Origin: Akkermansia muciniphila
GTDB lineage: Bacteria > Verrucomicrobiota > Verrucomicrobiia > Verrucomicrobiales > DEV007
Length of the DNA stretch: 32,561 bases
NCBI GenBank assembly: GCA_945883495.1
Contig: CAMCXS010000065.1
Location: 1 to 32,561, forward strand
Reading direction: 5' to 3'
In this document: one piece after another, positions 13,503-23,508 of the stretch
How the letters are laid out: the number at the start of each line of letters is the position of its first letter
Position numbering within the stretch: position 1 is the stretch's first letter
Notes under the pieces: generated by a model
The model's input: only the letters and a program-made list of their open reading frames with translations
The model's database searches: none
Told to the model about the DNA's origin: nothing
Translations under genes and position numbers: made by a program

Positions 13503-13607
13503 ATTCCGAATCCCGGAGCGCCTTTCTCTCGTAAGAGTTGATCACTCCAGCCACAAATGCGCTGGACATCGCCCCGGACCTCTCCCAAACGTTCAGCGCC
13601 CTATTTC

Positions 13608-14684
13608 ATGTCCCACGCCAAATTGTTTATCCCCGGCCCCGTGGAGATTTCTCAGGAAACCTACGAGGCGATGTGCACACCGATGATCGGGCATCGCGGG
13701 TCCGAGTTTCAGCAACTCTATGCCGCGATCCAGCCCAGGCTTCAAACCCTCTTCGGAACCACCGGACCGGTTTACCTGAGCACTTCCTCCGCTTGGGGGA
13801 TCATGGAAGGCGCCCTGCGCAATACCGTGATCAAGAAAGTCCTCAACTGCTGTGGCGGAGCCTTTTCCGATAAGTGGTACGACGTCGCCAAGCGTTGCGG
13901 CAAGCAGGCCGAGGCTTTGCAGGTCGAATGGGGCCAGCCCATCCTCCCCGAACAAGTCGATGCCCGTTTGGCCACGGGACAGTTCGACACCGTCACGCTG
14001 ATCCACAACGAGACCTCCACCGGAGTGATGAACCCGCTCGCGGAAATCGCCGCCGTGGTCCGCAAGTATCCGGACGTGATCTTGATCGTCGATACCGTGT
14101 CTTCGTTTTCCGTGGTCCCGACGCCGTTTGATGAACTGGGCGTCGATGTTCTGCTCACGGGCAGCCAGAAGGCCTTGGCGCTGCCGCCGGGGCTGGCGAT
14201 CTTTGCGGTCTCGCCCCGCGCCATGGAACGCGCCTCCCAGCTTTCGGACCGAGGATACTACTTCGACTTTCACGAGTTCCACGAGAACCACACCAAGAAC
14301 ATGACGCCCTCCACCCCGTGCATCCACACGATCTACGGTCTGCGTCAGAAGGTGGAGGAAATCTTCGCGGAAGGCGTCGCTCAACGCTACGAGCGGCACG
14401 CCAAGCTCAACGCGATCGTCCATGATTGGGTCGCCTCTGAAGGGTTCCACCACTTCGCTCCCGAGGGTTACCGCTCCAAGTCTCTGACCTGCATCGCCAA
14501 CAACAAGGGAATCGACGTGGACAAGCTTCAAAAACTCATGAAGCAAAACCACGCGATCGCGATCGATGGCGGCTACGGCAAGATCAAGGGCAAGACATTC
14601 CGCCTATCCAACATGGGGAACGAGACGGAAGAGAGCATCACGATCCTCTTGAACGCCCTGGATGAAAGCTTGTCCCACCTCTGA
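13608..14684 (+). CDS. Class V PLP aminotransferase (alanine/serine-glyoxylate type)
   Basis: The 358-residue protein has the class V aminotransferase pattern. It begins KLFIPGPVEISQETYEAM and MIGHRGSEF, the substrate-binding start of serine/alanine-glyoxylate aminotransferases. VYLSTSSAWGIMEGALRN contacts the cofactor phosphate, HNETSTGVMNPL and DTVSSFSVVP include the aspartate that holds the pyridine nitrogen, and LLTGSQKALALPPGLA supplies the Schiff-base lysine K188. FRLSNMGN is near the C-terminus. It should transfer amino groups between alanine or serine and glyoxylate, or serve as a phosphoserine aminotransferase-like enzyme in serine metabolism; the substrate is not settled by sequence alone. 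ATG 13608 was preferred to the earlier in-frame 13557 because family similarity begins there. The next gene starts 4 nt after its stop, so the two are probably one operon. Confidence 0.88.
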   Translation: MSHAKLFIPGPVEISQETYEAMCTPMIGHRGSEFQQLYAAIQPRLQTLFGTTGPVYLSTSSAWGIMEGALRNTVIKKVLNCCGGAFSDKWYDVAKRCGKQAEALQVEWGQPILPEQVDARLATGQFDTVTLIHNETSTGVMNPLAEIAAVVRKYPDVILIVDTVSSFSVVPTPFDELGVDVLLTGSQKALALPPGLAIFAVSPRAMERASQLSDRGYYFDFHEFHENHTKNMTPSTPCIHTIYGLRQKVEEIFAEGVAQRYERHAKLNAIVHDWVASEGFHHFAPEGYRSKSLTCIANNKGIDVDKLQKLMKQNHAIAIDGGYGKIKGKTFRLSNMGNETEESITILLNALDESLSHL

Positions 14685-14688
14685 TGCC

Positions 14689-15207
14689 ATGAGTGCATCT
14701 TGGGAAACCGCTCTGCTGACGGTGTTTGATCGCTGGCTGGCACGCTATCGCGCTGGGGAAACCAACTGGGAAGCGTTCGCCAACGCCGATGATGAGGCGT
14801 TTCTGCGTTCCATCGGCTACAAGCCCCGCGAACTGTTCGACTATGTCGAGGACCACGCCAACTACGGGGAACCGGACGCTGGGACGATCATCAACATCGC
14901 CGGAGTCCGTCGCGAATACTTCCTCGAAGTTCAGGCAGGCAAGCCCTCCTCCCGCGTGATCAAGCCTTCCAATCTTCCAGCCAAAACCGACGCCATCGAA
15001 GGCATCCCCTGGCTCCCCCGCCTCATTGTGAAGGCCGAGGGCAAACTCCGCGGGGAGCTCGATCCAGACATCATGTATTGCTGTCCTGGCGATTGGGCGT
15101 TTTTTGACCTCCACGGCCTCGATGCGGTGGAATTCCTCCGCTTCGTCTGGGAGTGCGACGGCGATCGCGACCTGATCGTACAGCACGTTGTCGCCGCCGG
15201 GAACTGA
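14689..15207 (+). CDS. DUF5069-like protein
   Basis: This 172-residue protein looks cytosolic, with no signal peptide or membrane segment. The N-terminal half (1-80) is helical, with RSIGYKPRELFDYVEDHANYGEPD. The C-terminal half has GIPWLPRLIVKAEGKLRGELDPDIMYCCPGDWAFFDLHGLDAVEFLRFVWE, which resembles the DUF5069 pattern (LPRxxDKxRAxLxG, YxCPLD, FL, GID). The function of that family is unknown. It starts 4 nt after the aminotransferase stop, so translational coupling is likely and a shared metabolic role is possible. Its stop is 3 bp from the convergent SET gene. Family assignment is from memory of the consensus and should be treated as probable. Confidence 0.75.
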   Translation: MSASWETALLTVFDRWLARYRAGETNWEAFANADDEAFLRSIGYKPRELFDYVEDHANYGEPDAGTIINIAGVRREYFLEVQAGKPSSRVIKPSNLPAKTDAIEGIPWLPRLIVKAEGKLRGELDPDIMYCCPGDWAFFDLHGLDAVEFLRFVWECDGDRDLIVQHVVAAGN

Positions 15208-15210
15208 AAG

Positions 15211-15798
15211 TTAGGCGTCCACGAAAAGCATCGTGGTCACCGAGGCGAGCGGGCCCGTGCCGTTCGCGGCAGCTTGGAGTTCCCGCCAAACGGCAGGTTC
15301 CACCAGGCTATGAAGAGGCTGCGGCACCGTGGGAAAGTCGGTAACCGCGCGCCGAATCTTGTCGTCCCAAATTTGGTGACAACGCACTAGGTCGTCGGGT
15401 TGAACCACGTCGCGCCCGCCTACTTCTTCGCACGGCTGGAATGGCTCAATGATGTTGAAGCAACCGTAATCGTTGGTCAGCTCCTCGCCCGCGGCGATGT
15501 CGCGCACCGCAATTTCGACCCCGTAGGGCGTGAGCAGGCAGTTGGAATCAAAGCTGTGGTTCATGAACCGCGCGTGATCCCAGCAGAAGACGTAGTGCCC
15601 TTGCCGGTTACGGTAGCAATACTTGTCCAGGACATCGCGCAACAACTCCGGAAAGGTGGCTACCTCTTCCACGGGGAAGGTGCGATCCAGCCGGTCCTGC
15701 ACCCAGGTGATCGTGCCGCGCGGGATCGGACGCGTGGCGACCACACCATGGCCAACGATGTCATTGATAAAGCGAAGTGCCGTGTCGGGATGGATCAT
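15211..15798 (-). CDS. SET-domain protein lysine methyltransferase
   Basis: The 195-residue protein is essentially one SET domain. IVGHGVVATRPIPRGTITW (about 14-32) is the opening GxG strand, RFMNHSFDSNCLL (77-89) is the AdoMet-binding RFxNHS motif with N80-H81, and GVEIAVRDIAAGEELTNDYG (93-112) is the closing segment with the catalytic-type Tyr111. A Cys cluster, as in post-SET regions, is not clear. The enzyme would transfer methyl groups from AdoMet to a lysine of a protein or peptide. It starts 10 nt after the stop of the ATP-grasp gene, so it should be co-translated with it, and its substrate may be the product or partner of that ligase. A longer in-frame start lies within the upstream gene; ATG 15798 fits the domain edge. 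Confidence 0.87.
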   Translation of the reverse strand: MIHPDTALRFINDIVGHGVVATRPIPRGTITWVQDRLDRTFPVEEVATFPELLRDVLDKYCYRNRQGHYVFCWDHARFMNHSFDSNCLLTPYGVEIAVRDIAAGEELTNDYGCFNIIEPFQPCEEVGGRDVVQPDDLVRCHQIWDDKIRRAVTDFPTVPQPLHSLVEPAVWRELQAAANGTGPLASVTTMLFVDA

Positions 15799-15808
15799 GA
15801 CGGTCGGT

Positions 15809-17275
15809 TCAGGCACGAGCTTGCTCGATGCGGCGGCGGAAAGAACGGGCGACCCGGCGATAGAGCTCCATCCCAAGCGCGGCGTCCTCGATGCCGGTTT
15901 CCACGTTGGGATTGTCGTTCACCTCGATGACCATGATGCGGTTGCCCACCTGTTTGAGATCGACGCCGTAGAGCCCGTCGCCAATCAACTGCGCGGCGCG
16001 GCAAGCGGTTTCCACGACCTGCGGCGGCGCGAACTCCACGTGCAACGTCTCGTGCTTGCCTGCCCGGTGCTCCTGCTTCTCCGCTTTCCAGTTGTAGACC
16101 TGCCAGTGGCCTGCGGCCATGTAGTATTTGCAGGCGAAGAGCGGCTTGTGGTCGAGCACCCCGATGCGCCAATCGTATTCGCTCGGGGCGAATTCCTGAG
16201 CAAGAATCAGTTCGGACTCCTTGAGCATCGCCTCCAACTCCGTCCGCAGCTCCTCCCGGGAATCCACTTTCCGCACGCCACGGCTGAACGATGCGTCCGG
16301 GATCTTGAGCACGCACGGCAGTTGCACGCGTTGCAACCGCTTCTCGCTTAGATCATCCCGGGTCAAAATCGTTGTCGCCGGCACAGGAATCTTGGCCCGC
16401 GCCATCGACTCGGCCAGGTAGATTTTGTTGGCGCTTCGGAGGATCGACCACGGATCATCCATCACGACCAATCCTTCCGCGTGAGCCAGCCGGGAGATCC
16501 GGTAGGTGTGATGATCCACCCCGGTGGTTTCCCGGATGAAAAGGGCGTCAAACTCGGTCACCCGGTCGGAATCGGCCCGGGTGATCCGCTCCACGAAGAA
16601 TCCGACCTCGCGGGCCGCTTCGGTAAAATTCTGGAGCGCCTTTTCATCCGAAGGCGGCGACGGATCCGCCGGATTGACGAGGATGGCGAGGTCGAACAGG
16701 AAGCGCTGTTTCGGCACCTTGGACTGGTGCCGCTTCTTGAAGTAGCTCGTGGCGAATTCCGCGATCCGGTCCCGCTCCGCCTCGGGTAGCTGACTCAAAC
16801 TCAGCGGTGCCACGGAAACCAAGGTCCAACGCTTTTGCTTTAGGAATTGCGCCCGCAGCAGGGGCGAGGGAAACAGCCGATATAACTGCGTCCCCAGTTG
16901 CGCGTGGGCCCGGTCCAGGGTCTGTCCGAAGAAGATCTCCAGCGTAAACTCCGTCTTGTCCTCTTTTTTCAGAGTGTTCTGAATCGTCTCGTCGATCTCG
17001 TCCCCGAGCGAACGAGCGATCGCCTGAGAACGAAAGTCGCGCAGAGTTCCCACGCTGGGAATTGCGCGGTGGCCTCGTGCTTCCGCCAGCAGGGAAACGT
17101 AATAGCCGAGGCTCTGGTAGGAGTAGGACCGGCAAAGATTGAAGACCCGGGCGCCAGGATACTGCTGGACGGTGTCCGGTGAAAGATACTGCCGCGCGGA
17201 AATCACCTCAACGGATTCCAGGGGCAGATTCCAGTGGCTGGTGTTGGTAACAACCAGAAGGTTTGGAGTAGGCAT
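15809..17275 (-). CDS. RimK-like ATP-grasp ligase with RLAN-type N-terminal domain
   Basis: The 488-residue protein starts MPTPNLLVVTNTSHWNLPLES. Residues about 5-160 match the RimK-like ATP-grasp N-terminal (RLAN) domain, including ISARQYLSP, ARVFNLCRSYSYQSLGYYVSLLAEARGH and a D-R-S-type end. Residues about 275-475 are an ATP-grasp fold: VMDDPWSILRSANKIYLAE, VLKIPDASFSRGV as the ATP-binding lysine strand, ELILAQEFAPSEYDWRIGVL, and E451-VNDNP456, the Mg2+-binding ENxNP-type motif. Such enzymes join an amino group to a carboxylate through an acyl-phosphate, as RimK does when adding glutamate. Only one base separates the GNAT stop from its ATG, so the two are almost certainly coupled. RLAN/RimK genes are often found with acetyltransferase genes and are predicted to modify peptides or small metabolites; the substrate is unknown. 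Confidence 0.88.
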   Translation of the reverse strand: MPTPNLLVVTNTSHWNLPLESVEVISARQYLSPDTVQQYPGARVFNLCRSYSYQSLGYYVSLLAEARGHRAIPSVGTLRDFRSQAIARSLGDEIDETIQNTLKKEDKTEFTLEIFFGQTLDRAHAQLGTQLYRLFPSPLLRAQFLKQKRWTLVSVAPLSLSQLPEAERDRIAEFATSYFKKRHQSKVPKQRFLFDLAILVNPADPSPPSDEKALQNFTEAAREVGFFVERITRADSDRVTEFDALFIRETTGVDHHTYRISRLAHAEGLVVMDDPWSILRSANKIYLAESMARAKIPVPATTILTRDDLSEKRLQRVQLPCVLKIPDASFSRGVRKVDSREELRTELEAMLKESELILAQEFAPSEYDWRIGVLDHKPLFACKYYMAAGHWQVYNWKAEKQEHRAGKHETLHVEFAPPQVVETACRAAQLIGDGLYGVDLKQVGNRIMVIEVNDNPNVETGIEDAALGMELYRRVARSFRRRIEQARA

Positions 17276-17276
17276 G

Positions 17277-17840
17277 TCACTCGGGCCGCCGCTCGGGAGC
17301 ATCGGCCAGTTTCGCGATCATCCGCCAGGCATCCCGCCCTGGCGCATAGAAATCCTGCAACAAGGTTTCGCGGGTGAAACCAAGCCGCTCGTACCATTCG
17401 AGCAAATCCTGCCGTCCGGCATCCGCTTCCAGCCGCATCGTGCGCACGCCGCAGTCTTGGGCCCGGCACCTGGCAAAGTCCATCAAGCCGCGGCCCAATC
17501 CACTCCCCTGCCGGGAAGGATCCGTCGCCAGGGAATAAACGCGCAACGCGTTCAGGTGCCAACGGAGCACCAGCGTGGCCGCCAAACGTCCTGGCTCTGC
17601 CTTCAGATCAGGCTGCACCCAAACCTCGTGCCGGGGATTCTTCAAACTTTCGCGAATCATCCGGCGGCTGTCGCGCCTCCAATCCTCAAAACAGACCTCC
17701 TCCAGGCGAAGCAGCTCGTCGAGATCAGCGGCATCCGCCCGACGCAACACCGCAACAGGCGCCTTGGCGGCTTCCTTGGCTGCGTCAGAACGCAGACGTC
17801 CTCGCGATCCTCTCACCGCCGCGGCAGCAGTAGCCTTCAT
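17277..17840 (-). CDS. GNAT-family N-acetyltransferase
   Basis: The 187-residue protein has a basic, Ala-rich N-terminal stretch of about 25 residues, then a GNAT domain: VLRRADAADLDELLRLEEVCFEDW opening, LRVYSLATDPSRQGSGLGRGLMDFARCRA as the acetyl-CoA pyrophosphate loop (Q/RxxGxG/A), and MRLEADAGRQDLLEWYERLGFTRE closing. It should move an acetyl or other acyl group from CoA to an amine. It is the first gene of a three-gene set with the ATP-grasp ligase (1 nt gap) and the SET gene. In related clusters the acetyltransferase is sometimes fused to a C39-like peptidase domain; here it stands alone. An upstream extension of the frame to 17894 looks non-homologous, so ATG 17840 was used. Confidence 0.85.
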   Translation of the reverse strand: MKATAAAAVRGSRGRLRSDAAKEAAKAPVAVLRRADAADLDELLRLEEVCFEDWRRDSRRMIRESLKNPRHEVWVQPDLKAEPGRLAATLVLRWHLNALRVYSLATDPSRQGSGLGRGLMDFARCRAQDCGVRTMRLEADAGRQDLLEWYERLGFTRETLLQDFYAPGRDAWRMIAKLADAPERRPE

Positions 17841-17924
17841 TTGCGAGAATGGTTCACCGAGGCCCGACGTTCGCTGACAACTGCCACTGCGCAACGGAAA
17901 ACTTCGGCACCTTGGGGCAACCCC

Positions 17925-18653
17925 TCATAGGTACTCCGCCGCCATGCGCCGCCAGTAATGCCCCTTGTGGGCCCGGCCCTGCCAGACGTGCAAATCGTGC
18001 TCGATTCCCTGCCGGCGGAGAACGTCGGAAAACTGCCGGTTGTTTTCCACGAACGGATCCTCGTCCCCAATCACCAAGGTGATTTCCATGCGCCGGATGA
18101 GATTGAGAGTCTCCTCGCACTGCAAGTTCGGCAGGTAGTGGCTTGGGTTGTGGTAGTAAATGTCTTCGTCGTAATAGCCGTCAAAGAGGTCGCTGAACCC
18201 CTCCACCGCCCAAGTCAGATCATAGCGCCCAGAAAACGCGACCACCCTGGTGAACATCTCTGGATGCCGGAGCGCGATGTTCACCGCGTGAAATGCCCCC
18301 AAACTGCAGCCATGCGCCACGGTCCGCGGGTCCGCATTCCGCTCGTTGATAAACGGCATCACCTCCTCCAACACGTACCGTTCAAACTCGTTGTGGCGCT
18401 TCACCCGCCCCGCTGGTTCGCACCAAAAGCAGTAAAAGGACTCGTGATCAATGCTATCCACGCAAAACAACTGCAGCTCACCCGCTTCCAGTTTGGGAGT
18501 CACCGCTTCCACGATCCGGATATCCTCGTACTCGTGAAACCTCCCGTCCCGGGTCGGAAACACCAGCACTCTTGCGCCGGCATGCCCAAAAACCAAGAGC
18601 TCCATTTCGCGCCCCAGGTTCGGCGAATGCCACTGATGGTATTCCCGGTTCAT
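17925..18653 (-). CDS. Esterase-family alpha/beta-hydrolase
   Basis: The 242-residue protein belongs to the putative-esterase (PF00756-like) group. MELLVFGHAGARVLVFPTRDGRFHEYED is the core strand and oxyanion area, HGCSLGAFHAVN gives the nucleophile S117, VIGDEDPFVENN carries the likely acid (D197 or D199), and WQGRAHKGHYWRR the histidine (H229 or H232). It lacks a signal peptide, so it is probably cytoplasmic. Members cleave esters of small alcohols, sugars or lipids. Its first codon overlaps the end of the upstream hydrolase gene by 4 nt (ATGA), a strong sign of one operon and perhaps one pathway. Confidence 0.85.
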   Translation of the reverse strand: MNREYHQWHSPNLGREMELLVFGHAGARVLVFPTRDGRFHEYEDIRIVEAVTPKLEAGELQLFCVDSIDHESFYCFWCEPAGRVKRHNEFERYVLEEVMPFINERNADPRTVAHGCSLGAFHAVNIALRHPEMFTRVVAFSGRYDLTWAVEGFSDLFDGYYDEDIYYHNPSHYLPNLQCEETLNLIRRMEITLVIGDEDPFVENNRQFSDVLRRQGIEHDLHVWQGRAHKGHYWRRMAAEYL

Positions 18654-19603
18654 AAGTTCCCGAAAAAGGCTTCCAGTTCTCCCAACAGACGCCGCTCTTC
18701 CTCCTCGGCCCCCGCATAAGGAAAGTGCCCCGCCTGCAACAAGAAGAGTTCTCGTGGCCCTGACAAGGCATTAAAGATGGAAAATTGCCCAGGTGGCGCC
18801 ACTGCGGGATCAAACTCAGCCAACGCGCAATGCACCGGAATTCGAATTCGCCGCGCCGCCGTCGCGGCATCGTAGTAGGCAAGGGTCGGCATCGGATCTC
18901 GCCCACGCGCCGCGTACGACCGAACAGCCTCCCCACTCCCGACCGTCCGGCATTGCAGGCGCAGCGGGTGATTCCCAAAGCTCGGCACATTGAAGTGGGC
19001 CCGCGCCACTCGATCCTCCCAAGCCAGCGCCATCGCCCCGATTCCGCCGCCAAAGCTGATGCCCATGAATCCAATCCTCCCTGCGATTTCAGGATACAAC
19101 TGCAACAGGGCGGATACCGCGCACCAAATGTCCTCCATGCAGCCTCCATGGATATAGGACTCCTTCTCTTCGATCCCGTGCAACACATGCCCGTAGGGAT
19201 CCGCGGGCACTCCCGGCAGACGGCTCAGCGCCAAACCGCGCAAACAGGGAAACAAGAGCGCCGCATCGGCAAACGGAAGATGCGTGTCCGGCGCGGTCCG
19301 TCCGCCGTAGCCGTGGGCGACCACGAACCCGCGAGCAGGCGGCCGATTCCGAGGCACCAAAAGCCAGCCACGAATCTTCACCCCGCCAGTGGAACGAAAA
19401 GCGATTTGAAACCGCCGCCGTTCCCCAACGGGCGCCTCTTCCTCGATCTCGATAGCCGGATTGAGAGCGACCGCCTTCACGAATCTCTGGCGCCAGAAAA
19501 ACTCCTCGTCTCCGGGCGAATCGGGGGCGCCGATCCGTAGGAGATCTTCCCGGGTCATGCCGTAGCTCGGGTCGAAGGGGAATGGATGCTGAAAAACGGC
19601 CAT
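18650..19603 (-). CDS. Acetyl xylan esterase (AXE1)-like alpha/beta-hydrolase
   Basis: The 317-residue protein resembles AXE1/cephalosporin-C deacetylases. GWLLVPRNRPPARGFVVAHGYGG is the first half of the fold, DIWCAVSALLQLYPEIAGRIGFMGISFGGGIGA gives the nucleophile S183, CALAEFDPAVAPPGQ the acid D265, and LLQAGHFPY the histidine H293. No signal peptide is seen. It may remove acetyl groups from xylo-oligosaccharides or similar compounds; the reaction is inferred from the family. A clear AGGGGG ribosome-binding site lies 5 nt before the ATG, and the downstream esterase overlaps its stop. The tRNA-Lys gene ends about 40 nt upstream on the same strand. Confidence 0.83.
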   Translation of the reverse strand: MAVFQHPFPFDPSYGMTREDLLRIGAPDSPGDEEFFWRQRFVKAVALNPAIEIEEEAPVGERRRFQIAFRSTGGVKIRGWLLVPRNRPPARGFVVAHGYGGRTAPDTHLPFADAALLFPCLRGLALSRLPGVPADPYGHVLHGIEEKESYIHGGCMEDIWCAVSALLQLYPEIAGRIGFMGISFGGGIGAMALAWEDRVARAHFNVPSFGNHPLRLQCRTVGSGEAVRSYAARGRDPMPTLAYYDAATAARRIRIPVHCALAEFDPAVAPPGQFSIFNALSGPRELFLLQAGHFPYAGAEEEERRLLGELEAFFGNL

Positions 19604-19608
19604 CGAAG

Positions 19609-19614
19609 CCCCCT
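19609..19614 (-). promoter_or_regulatory. Ribosome-binding site of the AXE1-like gene
   Basis: AGGGGG on the minus strand, 5 nt before the ATG at 19603. It fixes the start and is one of the few clear Shine-Dalgarno sequences in the window. Confidence 0.5.
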
Positions 19615-19645
19615 CGGATCTCCGCCGGACACTACGGAAAGGGAC

Positions 19646-19718
19646 TGGACAGGCTGGGACTCGAACCCAGGACCAATTGGTTAAAAGCCAACTGCTCTAC
19701 CGACTGAGCTACCTGTCC
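19646..19718 (-). tRNA. tRNA-Lys (anticodon UUU)
   Basis: The 73-nt minus-strand sequence folds as a standard tRNA. The acceptor stem is GGACAGG with CCTGTCC plus discriminator A, the D arm is GCTCAGTCGGTAGAGC, the anticodon loop is CTTTTAA with anticodon TTT, and the T arm contains GGTTCGAGTCC. The 3' CCA is not encoded. It lies between the AXE1-like gene and the unknown gene at 19854; the preceding base run gives no clear promoter. Confidence 0.97.
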
Positions 19719-19838
19719 GTTAAAGGCTTTCCATACGGCCCGCTCAAGGAGGGACGCAGTAAATGGCTCATTCCGCTTTTTTCAAGCAGAGTTTTCCAGA
19801 AGCGAGTCGATCGCCCCCCGGGCTCACAAGAAATTTAC

Positions 19839-19855
19839 GACGGCGAAGCCCCGTC
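19839..19855 (-). terminator. Weak hairpin at the end of the 447-residue protein gene
   Basis: GACGG/CCGTC stem with a 7-nt loop, overlapping the stop codon and followed by a modestly T-rich GTAAATTTCTTG. It could act as a weak intrinsic terminator ahead of the tRNA gene; the short stem keeps confidence low. Confidence 0.25.
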
Positions 19856-21197
19856 AGTTGCCGTCCCCATCTGCTGCAAGGTCGCCAGCAGCCTGCCTCC
19901 GCGCCACCTCCATCGCGGCGATCAGGCTCCCGTGACGACTCACCGGCAACAAGCCTCCCTCCACCGTCTGCACCTCGCCAAAAGCGGTCGGAGCCGCAAC
20001 CTTAGGCTCCAACGTGGACCGGTCTTGATGCCGGACTAAGGTCCACTGCTCCGCGATGAAGTCTGCCAAGTGATCCAGTGAGTTGGCGCTGCACCAATCC
20101 TCAATGGTGGTGAAGTCTTCATCGCTCAGCGCCGTCACCCAACTCCACCAAACGTTGGCGTCTTCGGATGGGCCAGGCACTTCTTCTTCAACCCCGCCTT
20201 GATCGGCAAAATTACAAAGCTCGCTGATCGCGGCATCGCGCAGCATTTCAGCGGCCTCGCGTTTGCGCCGCAACGGGTGGCTGATCGGAACCTCTTGAAG
20301 AAAATCCGCCAGCGCCGTTGCCCAAACGCTGTGGGGATCAGGGATCGCTTCGATCACCCCCCGCAACGTCTCCGCGTCCTTCCAACTGCCGTGGGCCGCG
20401 GCGAACTGATAGACGCCCAAAGAAATGACGGACGCTTTTCTCAACTTCCGCTCCAAGGCGCCCAAATCCATTGGGCCCGCTACGTGCCGGATCCGCCGGA
20501 TATCCGCTTCCACGCTGTCCATCAGATCGTCCAGCTCCTCCATCTGCCCCAACGCGGCATGCTTATCCGTCGGCAATGGCACTGGCACGCTTACGCTGGC
20601 CGCCTCAATGGTCGGCGCCAAGGAAGACGAGCCCGGAGCGGAAACAACCGGCTGTGGTGACTCGACCTTCGGAGTCTCGCCGGCGTTCCGCTCCGCGGAG
20701 CTCTCCTGCACGGGAACCATCCACTGAGCCAATGCTCCATCCAGCAAGCCGCCGCGCAAGGCTTCCGTCACCAGACCGCCTTGGGGATGCCGCTGCAACT
20801 CTTCCGGTGGTTCTGGCTCGCCCAAGCCTTCAACTCCGGCCTCTTGCTTCGCCGTCTTAACCCACTCCGCGATCGACGCCAGCAAAACCGGATCACCTTC
20901 CGTCAAATACTTGGTGACCGCATCAATCAAGAGCGGCTCGTTGCCCTCCATGAGCAGGGTCTCGTCCAGCCTCTCCCGAAGTGGTTCGGTCGAACTTTCC
21001 TCAGCGACGCAACGCAAGATCTCGGCCGTATCTACGCCAGACTTCTTGAGCCAATTTTCAAAAAGATCGTGGGTGAAGCGTCGCCGCGCCGCGAACTTGA
21101 CGAACTTGGCCTTTTCCTCGGACGATAGCTGCCGGTAAGCCCCACGAAGACGCTCAATCGCGCCGACGTAGGATGGACTGGAGAGGGAAGGATTCAT
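19854..21197 (-). CDS. Protein of unknown function (447 aa)
   Basis: I do not recognise this protein. Residues about 1-120 are helical and charged (GAIERLRGAYRQLSSEEKAKFVKFAARRRF), residues about 120-215 are low-complexity and rich in Pro, Glu, Ser and Val (likely disordered), and residues about 215-400 are helical again, including DDLMDSVEADIRRIRHVAG and WWSWVTALSDEDFTTIEDWCSANSLDHLADFIAE. There is no signal peptide or membrane segment, so it is probably cytoplasmic. It starts 49 nt after the stop of the repeat-bearing gene on the same strand, so the two may be co-transcribed and work together. ATG 21197 was preferred to the upstream in-frame 21233. Codon use matches the GC-rich neighbours. 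Confidence 0.75.
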   Translation of the reverse strand: MNPSLSSPSYVGAIERLRGAYRQLSSEEKAKFVKFAARRRFTHDLFENWLKKSGVDTAEILRCVAEESSTEPLRERLDETLLMEGNEPLLIDAVTKYLTEGDPVLLASIAEWVKTAKQEAGVEGLGEPEPPEELQRHPQGGLVTEALRGGLLDGALAQWMVPVQESSAERNAGETPKVESPQPVVSAPGSSSLAPTIEAASVSVPVPLPTDKHAALGQMEELDDLMDSVEADIRRIRHVAGPMDLGALERKLRKASVISLGVYQFAAAHGSWKDAETLRGVIEAIPDPHSVWATALADFLQEVPISHPLRRKREAAEMLRDAAISELCNFADQGGVEEEVPGPSEDANVWWSWVTALSDEDFTTIEDWCSANSLDHLADFIAEQWTLVRHQDRSTLEPKVAAPTAFGEVQTVEGGLLPVSRHGSLIAAMEVARRQAAGDLAADGDGN

Positions 21198-21246
21198 GGG
21201 TCTGGGGATTCGCGCCACCCAGACTATACACAAGAACCGTTAATTA

Positions 21247-23340
21247 TCAATTTTCCGCAGCTTTACTTAAAATTTCTTCAGCAACATCGCCTTCCTCGAC
21301 ATTCAACCCCGATGCATCTGGTGTTTCGTTGGCGATCTCCGCAACCGCTTCGTCGGCGATCTCCGCAACCGCTTCGTCGGCGATCTCCGCAACCGATTCG
21401 TCGGCGATCTCCGCAACCGATTCATCGGCGATCTCCACAACCGATTCATCGGCGATCTCCACAACCGATTCATCGGCGATCTCCACAACCGATTCATCGG
21501 CGATCTCCACAACCGATTCATCGGCGATCTCCGCAACCGATTCGTCGGCGATCTCCACAACCGGTTCATCGGCGATCTCCGCAACCGATTCGTCGGCGAT
21601 CTCCACAACCGATTCGTCGGCGCTCTCCGCAACCGGTTCATCGGCGATCTCCGCAACCGGTTCATCGGCGATCTCCGCAACCGATTCGTCGGCGATCTCC
21701 GCAGCCGATTCGTCGGCGATCTCTTCAACGGATTCGTCGGCGATCTCCGCAGCCGATTCGTCGGCGATCTCTTCAACGGATTCGTCGGCGATGTTCTCAA
21801 CCACTTCGTCGACGCTCTCCGCGACACCGGCGTCTGCTCCCGGATCCACGTCGGAGTCGCCCTTCCGTTTTCCTTTCGGTTTTCCCTTTGGGGCGGCATT
21901 CTCCGAAGGCTGCACGCCCAGGAAAAGCGCGCTCGATGCATATTCGATGATGTAGCCTTCGTCGATGAGCCAATGCAGGTCGGATAGGACCGATGTTTCC
22001 TCCGGCGTGTATTCCCCCTGGGCCAGCTCGACGCCCGGTGCACGAGGGGCAATGGCAGCCACAAGATCCTTGACCAGCACCCCCGGGCTGGTGGTGACGC
22101 GTTCGGTGATCCGCCGGATCGACTCCGAGAGATTCACCGAAGGATCAATGGCCCGAGGCCGACTTTTGCAGACAAAGAGCTTTTTCCCATGTCGCTTGAA
22201 AATGCGCAGGCCCTTCGCCTCAAGCTGACCGCAAAGTACTTTGACCAACGGGAAAGGCCCGGTCCGCAAAGGCTCAACGGTTTGGCGCAGCAACGTCAGC
22301 AATCCCGGCGCCAGATGGTTACCCGGAATGTTCCCGGGAACCGATGCCTTGTTCACCTTCTGGACAATTTCATCGGAGAGCTGCGTCATTGCGTGCCGTT
22401 CCAAGGCTTCGATCGACTCCAGCCGGGTTTGAGTCTCCCCTTCCGCCACCTCTTTGGGATACAAATAGTGGGTAACCTTGCTTTCGGCCTCCTTCCACTT
22501 CGCGACCAGTTCCTCGTTCGTCTCGGTTTTGATCCGGGATTTGAAACGCTCGAACTGCATATTCGCGAACCGGCGTTTGTAGAGGCGTACCACGGCATTT
22601 TGAAAACTGTGATGGTTTGGCGGCCCCAGAATTACGCCGCTCATACCGCACACCGCGACGGCGCGGAATTCCCCTTTCGGAGGTTCCACCTCTTTGTTCT
22701 CCACCAGGTAGATGCTCTCCAAGTTTCCCTGCTCAAGGAAATGCCGCATCGCCTGCTCCTTGGAAAGCCATAATGACCCATCCGGTCGGCACCGGAAGAG
22801 CTGGACCGTCGCATCAGGCTCCACGGCGAATTCCACGACGAACCGCTCGCGTCCCGCCAACACAATCTTGGCCACGTCAAACAATCCGAAGGCACGGCCA
22901 GATTTCTTGATTTGCAGCACCAGGGCTTCCACCGCATGAGGCGAAGGCTTTACCAAGGCAGTCACACCGGCCGGCGGCGCTTCATGCCGGGCTTCACGGT
23001 CACGCTGCCCGCGGTCCTGATCACGTCCACGCCCGCGATCCCGGTCACGATCACGCCCGCCCTCGCGGCGCTCTCTGCGGTCGGGGCCACCACCACCATC
23101 GCGCCTCGGCCCGGCATCGCGTCGATCGCCGCCTCGGCCTCCAAATCCCTCGCGCCCACGTCCGCCATCTTTGCCCCAGTTTGATCGAGGTCCGGCCTGC
23201 CGCCCACGAGGTTGTTCCTCCTCTTCGTCGTACGACCGAATCACCGGCTTGGGCGCTGAGTCCAAGCTCACCACCCAGTCGGGCATTAGTTGCAACCCCG
23301 AAAGATCGATTTTGTCTATGGACTCCCCTGGCTCTGACAT
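21247..23340 (-). CDS. Unknown protein with Arg/Asp/Gly-rich region and acidic octapeptide repeats
   Basis: The 697-residue protein has four parts. Residues about 1-50 contain DLSGLQLMPDWV. Residues about 50-120 are a disordered Arg/Asp/Gly-rich segment (GRGGDRRD, GGRDRDRDRGRGRD), resembling the RGG/RD tails of RNA-binding proteins. Residues about 125-490 are a folded core that includes a winged-helix-like end (SVLSDLHWLIDEGYIIEYASSALFLGV). Residues 516-675 are about 20 tandem octapeptides of the form EIADESVA or EIADESVV, strongly acidic. I know of no characterised relative; a nucleic-acid-binding role is only suggested by the basic segment and winged helix. The frame is open upstream to 23442; ATG 23340, with GAGG just before it, was chosen. 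It is divergent from the protease gene. Confidence 0.8.
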   Translation of the reverse strand: MSEPGESIDKIDLSGLQLMPDWVVSLDSAPKPVIRSYDEEEEQPRGRQAGPRSNWGKDGGRGREGFGGRGGDRRDAGPRRDGGGGPDRRERREGGRDRDRDRGRGRDQDRGQRDREARHEAPPAGVTALVKPSPHAVEALVLQIKKSGRAFGLFDVAKIVLAGRERFVVEFAVEPDATVQLFRCRPDGSLWLSKEQAMRHFLEQGNLESIYLVENKEVEPPKGEFRAVAVCGMSGVILGPPNHHSFQNAVVRLYKRRFANMQFERFKSRIKTETNEELVAKWKEAESKVTHYLYPKEVAEGETQTRLESIEALERHAMTQLSDEIVQKVNKASVPGNIPGNHLAPGLLTLLRQTVEPLRTGPFPLVKVLCGQLEAKGLRIFKRHGKKLFVCKSRPRAIDPSVNLSESIRRITERVTTSPGVLVKDLVAAIAPRAPGVELAQGEYTPEETSVLSDLHWLIDEGYIIEYASSALFLGVQPSENAAPKGKPKGKRKGDSDVDPGADAGVAESVDEVVENIADESVEEIADESAAEIADESVEEIADESAAEIADESVAEIADEPVAEIADEPVAESADESVVEIADESVAEIADEPVVEIADESVAEIADESVVEIADESVVEIADESVVEIADESVVEIADESVAEIADESVAEIADEAVAEIADEAVAEIANETPDASGLNVEEGDVAEEILSKAAEN
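21316..21795 (-). repeat. 24-bp minisatellite encoding octapeptide repeats
   Basis: About 20 head-to-tail 24-bp units, in frame, translate as (E/N)IADE(S/P/A)(V/A)(A/V/E) octapeptides. Four consecutive units at 21421-21516 are identical base for base, which points to recent expansion by slippage or unequal exchange. Because 24 is a multiple of 3, gains and losses keep the frame; the same feature leaves the opposite strand open in two frames. Confidence 0.95.
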
Positions 23341-23508
23341 CACCTCTACGTTCCTCCCGGCAGCCAGTTTACAGCACGGCGCGTCCTCTGTCTTCACGGA
23401 ATTCATCGTGAACCTGCGATTCGTTCGACAGAATCGCCGCAACCTGCCACAATGACGGTCGCTGCGCCGTTCACCTCTTCGCCCCAGCTCCCTCCCGCTC
23501 CGCTCCTT

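Follow-up and report, generated by a model that had tools for sequence, protein, structure and literature searches.

We analysed a window of 32,561 nucleotides (contig CAMCXS010000065.1 of assembly GCA_945883495.1, Akkermansia muciniphila), in which three adjacent genes encode a GNAT N-acetyltransferase, a RimK-like ATP-grasp ligase carrying an RLAN domain and a small SET-domain methyltransferase. These three genes form a recurrent unit across distantly related bacteria of four phyla. To judge from sequence comparison, the SET partner is most likely a new addition to the known ATP-grasp amidoligase systems. In several bacterial phyla, operon structure thus links a SET family with a peptide ligase and an acetyltransferase, which gives a testable handle on the function of such SET enzymes and on the products of RLAN ligases. 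The genes, in operon order, are:

17277..17840, minus strand: GNAT N-acetyltransferase, RimI-like, first gene of the operon (187 aa; Pfam PF00583, E 1.4e-10)
15809..17275, minus strand: RLAN and RimK-like ATP-grasp ligase (488 aa; PF14401, E 8.3e-47; PF08443, E 5.9e-9)
15211..15798, minus strand: small SET-domain methyltransferase (195 aa; PF00856, E 8.6e-13)

Gaps of 1 nt and 10 nt separate the genes, and Pfam supports all three assignments, so that the packed cassette stands with the position, order and strand described for it in an earlier note made from the DNA letters. No NCBIfam model scored above its cut-off for the GNAT, the ligase or the SET protein of the window. A simple gene caller favours a ligase start at 17302, 27 nt further up; the ATG at 17275 is in line with the alignment of relatives.

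The linkage was observed in another phylum, in the class of Desulfopila aestuarii. Among 144 genomes of this class, RLAN was present in 51 and a full-length SET ortholog (at least 47% identity) in 16, all of which hold RLAN as well (Fisher p 1e-8, uncorrected for relatedness). An 83-residue SET fragment in G665, a genome of the class with no RLAN, was kept outside the 16. In 14 of the 16 genomes SET and RLAN share contig and strand and are no more than about 2 kb apart, in the order RLAN-GNAT-SET in 13 and RLAN-SET in one (L282); in the two exceptions (G686 and G727) they are on different contigs. GNAT and SET overlap by 4 nt, as in coupled genes, in 9 of the 12 operons with measured gaps, and the full operon is present in the named strain Desulfopila aestuarii DSM 18488 (L162). 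Ten of the 14 operons have a citrate synthase gene in front of RLAN. Among the loci fetched, this neighbour is confined to the Desulfopila class; citrate was considered as a substrate and not adopted.

Closer to the window, two loci of its own genus (L136 and L137) show the same gene order, with gaps of 1 and 10-15 nt, and GNAT-RLAN-SET also occurs in a second genus of the same family, g164 (L283 and L284). A relative of the RLAN ligase (at least 40% identity) was found in 11 of the 58 genomes of this family. Five of the 11 have SET next to it: three from the window's genus, two of which were equated with L136 and L137 by matching coordinates, and two from g164. The other six comprise three of the C39/GCS2 type, one with GNAT and no SET (L290) and two (L285, L287) in which none of these partners was found. 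Across a sample of 288 genomes of the window's phylum, RLAN occurs in 37, some SET match in 32 and a close SET ortholog (at least 45% identity over at least 170 residues) in seven. Six of these seven hold RLAN (Fisher p 2e-5); with the window genome removed and one genus collapsed, the co-occurrence gave p 0.006, relatedness being otherwise uncorrected.

In Planctomycetota (the phylum of the genome with L138), SET (E < 1e-18) was found in 14 of 246 genomes, RLAN in 65 and both in seven (p 0.046). Two of these seven (G899 and G900) encode a GNAT-RLAN fusion followed by SET (L405, L406), and a GNAT-RLAN fusion separated from SET by one gene was found in Draconibacterium aestuarii of the Bacteroidota (L188). 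In a further locus, L213, GNAT-nitrilase, RLAN, GCS2 and FGase are followed in one run by another gene and then SET. Some open frames in Planctomycetota, 400-600 aa long, looked like SET fusions; they were set aside, as the SET part begins inside the frame, at a Met, and what precedes it resembles read-through in a GC-rich frame. One scan of viral contigs gave no SET relative.

When SET neighbourhoods were pooled (146 loci from 45 lineages), the GNAT/RLAN cluster was the top neighbour, with 39 genes in 12 lineages, 38 of them on the same strand; the next neighbours reached 5 and 4 lineages. This count excluded duplicates (L298, L300, L156, L169) and non-orthologous loci (L133, L134, L135), although not every duplicate was removed (L337, at least, is still included). 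L144, whose contig has very low coverage and shows broken GNAT fragments next to SET, does not figure in the counts. Because the simple gene caller missed RLAN or SET in some loci (e.g., L034, L049, L287, L291, L404), neighbours were recounted in six frames over 377 loci, fetched for SET or RLAN and so not random, of which 201 contain SET (153 distinct at 99%). RLAN lies within 6 kb of 23 of the 153 distinct SET genes, on the same strand in 23 of 23, and nitrilase-GNAT within 3 kb of eight, always on the SET strand. The recount also shows nitrilase-GNAT beside SET on the same strand in two more planctomycetotal loci (L399, 5811-8192; L404, 7215-9593). A scan of named genomes returned at least 507 SET relatives; among the best 80 of them, RLAN lies within four genes of SET in five (L136, L137, L162, L188, L213), and in another five (L138, L139, L140, L146, L150) the immediate neighbour of SET is a nitrilase-GNAT protein or the GNAT part of one. 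Of the 40 genomes from these 80 that were searched, 18 hold RLAN somewhere.

Eight changes of the SET label are needed on a tree built from 67 RLAN proteins, where the label occurs in a clade of the Desulfopila class, in the window's family, in Planctomycetota, in Draconibacterium and in L213; the link has therefore arisen or been retained at several distinct points. RLAN-linked members are likewise spread over the SET tree (147 rows), on which those from the window's family and the Desulfopila class group in a single clade with moderate support (Shimodaira-Hasegawa-like approximate likelihood ratio test, SH-aLRT, 85-88). Chance grouping of the three genes is ruled out by the Desulfopila-class linkage, the second genus of the same family, the neighbour ranking, the gaps and overlaps, and the same-strand recount.

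Several counts weigh against reading SET as a regular part of the system. In the phylum sample, the six-frame recount found SET in none of the 37 other RLAN loci, which come from the other 36 genomes and have a GNAT gene or domain adjoining or fused to RLAN in 20 cases and C39 or GCS2 genes in 10. RLAN adjoins SET only in the window genome among the six of 288 that hold both, the other five having them on different contigs; in favour of the link, SET in one of these (G206, L130) is divergent from an adjacent GNAT of the RLAN-linked subfamily. Of the 51 genomes of the Desulfopila class that have RLAN, 35 lack a full-length SET ortholog. In Bacteroidia (247 genomes), RLAN over cut-off was found in 14, SET matches in 40 and both in two, which is the chance level; SET and RLAN are apart in G401, the one of the two other than Draconibacterium, and RLAN occurs in none of the 36 SET loci fetched from this class. 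For 122 of the 153 distinct SET genes, no RLAN lies within 6 kb and no nitrilase-GNAT within 3 kb. Moreover, in Salinimicrobium and other Flavobacteria (e.g., L149, 4497-9806) a SET ortholog without RLAN is found within a biotin operon with the order bioD-bioA-SET-ketoacyl synthase, which indicates that SET has roles outside the RLAN unit; bioA-like neighbours of SET number 13, in two lineages. The earlier note had made its proposal depend on adjacency in related genomes, and this holds in some clades; the proposal is weakened by the window's phylum sample and by the majority of RLAN genes without SET and of SET orthologs without RLAN nearby.

The ligase has been read from the start as a RimK-like enzyme with an RLAN-type N-terminus, and this was borne out by matches over cut-off to both families: RLAN (PF14401) at residues 27-173, N-terminal, and RimK (PF08443) at residues 283-460. 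The AlphaFold model (predicted local distance difference test, pLDDT, 85) matches ArgX, LysX and RimK over residues 194-487 at Z 24-28, and ArgX 3vpb at Z 28.3 with a root-mean-square deviation (rmsd) of 2.3 over 267 residues. Among the nearest folds, listed for residues 193-487, are ArgX together with the carrier protein LysW and a RimK-RpsF complex. An alignment of 20 RLAN ligases shows D368-W369-R370, D439, E451 and N453 to be invariant. Also invariant in these ligases is H390-W391-Q392, where an aligned Pseudomonas RimK has other residues. The meaning of the former positions as ATP/Mg-binding motifs is taken from knowledge of the family and from the DIRY and EVN motifs named in the accessible part of PMC3520985.

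In the SET protein, G16, G18, N80-H81-S82 and Y111 are invariant among 19 aligned sequences, and we take them to play the roles of the GxG, NHS and Tyr motifs. Its model (pLDDT 87) matched histone methyltransferase SET domains, among them that of ASH1L (Z 9.9, rmsd 2.9, 128 residues), and superposed on the bacterial SET enzyme BurB at Z 8.9 (rmsd 3.4, 124 residues), a similar fold at 18% identity. For both the ligase and the SET protein, whose possible lack of active-site residues had earlier been named as a weak point, the motif residues are thus invariant in the alignments and the models have the folds of their families. The window GNAT scored 36 bits against the NCBIfam model rimI (cut-off 86.4), and all GNATs scanned were RimI-like and below this cut-off.

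Read together from their sequences, the three genes may make up one operon and one pathway, in which a single substrate encoded in trans would be ligated, capped and N-methylated; we hold the chances of this reading to be about even. RimK, LysX and ArgX activate a carboxylate with ATP and then join it to an amine. By its fold and motifs, the window ligase would likewise activate a carboxylate as an acyl phosphate and join it to an amine, most likely that of an amino acid, and the RLAN part might, as a guess, select the acceptor. The RimI-like GNAT, by its subfamily, would then acetylate a free amino group on the acceptor or the product. The SET protein, by its motifs, would move methyl groups from S-adenosylmethionine to a primary amine, such as a lysine side chain or a lysine-like amine. 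The gene calls show no precursor, carrier or other substrate gene that recurs in the operon, and for this reason the substrate is presumably encoded or made elsewhere. A precursor-peptide (graspetide) reading was set aside, since no small gene recurs beside the operon in gene calls, open reading frames under 50 aa lying outside the search.

A short peptide or amine conjugate appears as plausible a substrate as a ribosomal-type protein, or slightly preferable. The alternative on the protein side, which goes back to the earlier note, that the ligase adds amino acids to a protein, the GNAT caps them and SET methylates a lysine of the same protein, is unlikely, yet it remains a serious candidate. 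RimK adds amino acids to S6, SET domains act mostly on protein lysines, the ligase folds near ArgX with LysW and RimK with RpsF, and the GNAT is RimI-like. The eukaryotic protein TTLL12 moreover unites SET-like and TTL (ATP-grasp-type) domains, according to the accessible part of PMC3520985. Against modification of a protein stand the absence of a linked target gene in the gene calls and the score of the ligase with the RimK subfamily model (59 bits, cut-off 143). Related RLAN systems carry GCS2, FGase and nitrilase-GNAT partners, which suggests small molecules rather than a protein. One side observation concerns such a system: in L394 (5751-8675) a single protein of 974 aa, encoded between C39 and FGase genes, is a fusion of RLAN ATP-grasp and GCS2, and L391, L392, L393 and L395 resemble it in six frames.

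A small-molecule substrate is possible considering the genes found beside SET (arginine decarboxylase, agmatinase, nitrilase-GNAT) and the action of BurB on free methionine, described in the accessible part of PMC12542666. We put forward, tentatively and as a rather unlikely reading, a three-step metabolite pathway spread over at least four phyla, in which the RLAN ligase makes a small amine or peptide conjugate, the GNAT acetylates it and SET methylates it. If true, this would mean that some SET enzymes belong to small-molecule rather than protein chemistry, and would account for the links of SET to arginine decarboxylase, agmatinase and nitrilase-GNAT genes.

In an amine or polyamine conjugate pathway, which we regard as improbable, SET would methylate a small amine, and the ligase and GNAT would couple or acetylate such an amine. 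Polyamine-synthesis genes lie within 8 kb of six of the 153 distinct SET genes in the six-frame recount. In L186 (6587-9459) an arginine decarboxylase-like gene and agmatinase flank SET, leaving gaps of 1 and 7 nt; in L142 it follows speA by 4 nt; in L267 and L268 the RLAN-GNAT-SET operon adjoins speA and the genes of carboxynorspermidine synthase and decarboxylase. N-carbamoylputrescine amidase is the best match for the nitrilase part of the L213 partner (71.9 bits, cut-off 410) and only the third for that of L138 (46.4 bits). A SET enzyme that acts on a free amino acid, BurB, is also on this side (PMC12542666, accessible part). However, neither the surroundings of the window operon nor 12 of the 14 Desulfopila-class operons showed a polyamine gene, SpeA was chosen after many neighbour families had been viewed, and in L189, L268 and L335 the genes are at least 2 kb from SET. 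Least probable is shared transcription only, with a housekeeping SET methyltransferase placed beside RLAN-GNAT operons and no common substrate: RLAN is not near most SET orthologs and the biotin operon of Flavobacteria holds SET, but the recurrence in four phyla, the overlaps, the single strand and a spread over more lineages than any other neighbour family argue against it.

Around the operon in the window, the SET gene ends convergently with a plus-strand gene whose DUF5069 match is weak. Two esterase-like genes lie upstream on the minus strand (17925-18653 and 18650-19603), the nearer one 84 nt from the GNAT gene; they are present in L136 and L137 of the window's genus and were not counted as parts of the operon because they were not found in the g164 loci L283 and L284. 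Further off, the minus-strand open reading frame at 21247-23442 has, in translation, a C-terminal part made of a long run of near-identical short acidic repeats. Elsewhere, in L400 (4470-8496) and L151 (2743-8615), a SET ortholog lies near a RimK-like gene that belongs to a different RimK system and is flanked by what are presumably protease-like and AstE-like genes.

RLAN ATP-grasp amidoligase systems were reportedly predicted by Iyer et al. in 2009, in the types C39-RLAN-GCS2(-FGase) and GNAT-RLAN. The window operon shares with them the RLAN domain joined to a RimK-like ligase and fits the GNAT-RLAN type, since its GNAT gene adjoins RLAN. It differs in adding SET and in the absence of GCS2, FGase and C39 around it, none of which gave a Pfam match among the nine window proteins scanned (13557-23442). 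The N-acetylglutaminylglutamine (NAGGN) synthetase is a GNAT and ATP-grasp protein making an acetylated dipeptide, and the joining of GNAT to an ATP-grasp ligase is common to both systems; its model, which we take to be in the library, was not among the matches of the window proteins (E 0.01) or of two GNAT-RLAN fusions (1e-5). With RimK, LysX and ArgX the window ligase shares the superposable ATP-grasp half and differs from them by the extra N-terminal RLAN part of about 190 residues; it also scores far below the cut-offs for LysX and for both curated RimK models (59.2 bits for TIGR00768, cut-off 143.4; 29.6 bits for NF007764, cut-off 331). In the literature covered (mostly titles and the starts of abstracts, Iyer et al. 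2009 not included), no description of a bacterial SET protein with an ATP-grasp ligase was found, which agrees with the earlier note's statement that it knew of no described system with an added lysine methyltransferase. A review of bacterial SET proteins centres, in its accessible part, on their role in host chromatin (PMC3980110). BurB is, like the window protein, a small stand-alone bacterial SET enzyme; it is a methionine S-methyltransferase that methylates free methionine in the dimethylsulfoniopropionate (DMSP) pathway, and no RLAN ligase is mentioned in the accessible part of its description (PMC12542666). The pairing of a SET-like domain with an ATP-grasp-type ligase domain has a counterpart in human TTLL12, which the accessible part of PMC3520985 reports to be without critical residues and inactive; TTLL12 is a eukaryotic single chain, whereas the window system consists of separate genes with conserved motifs.

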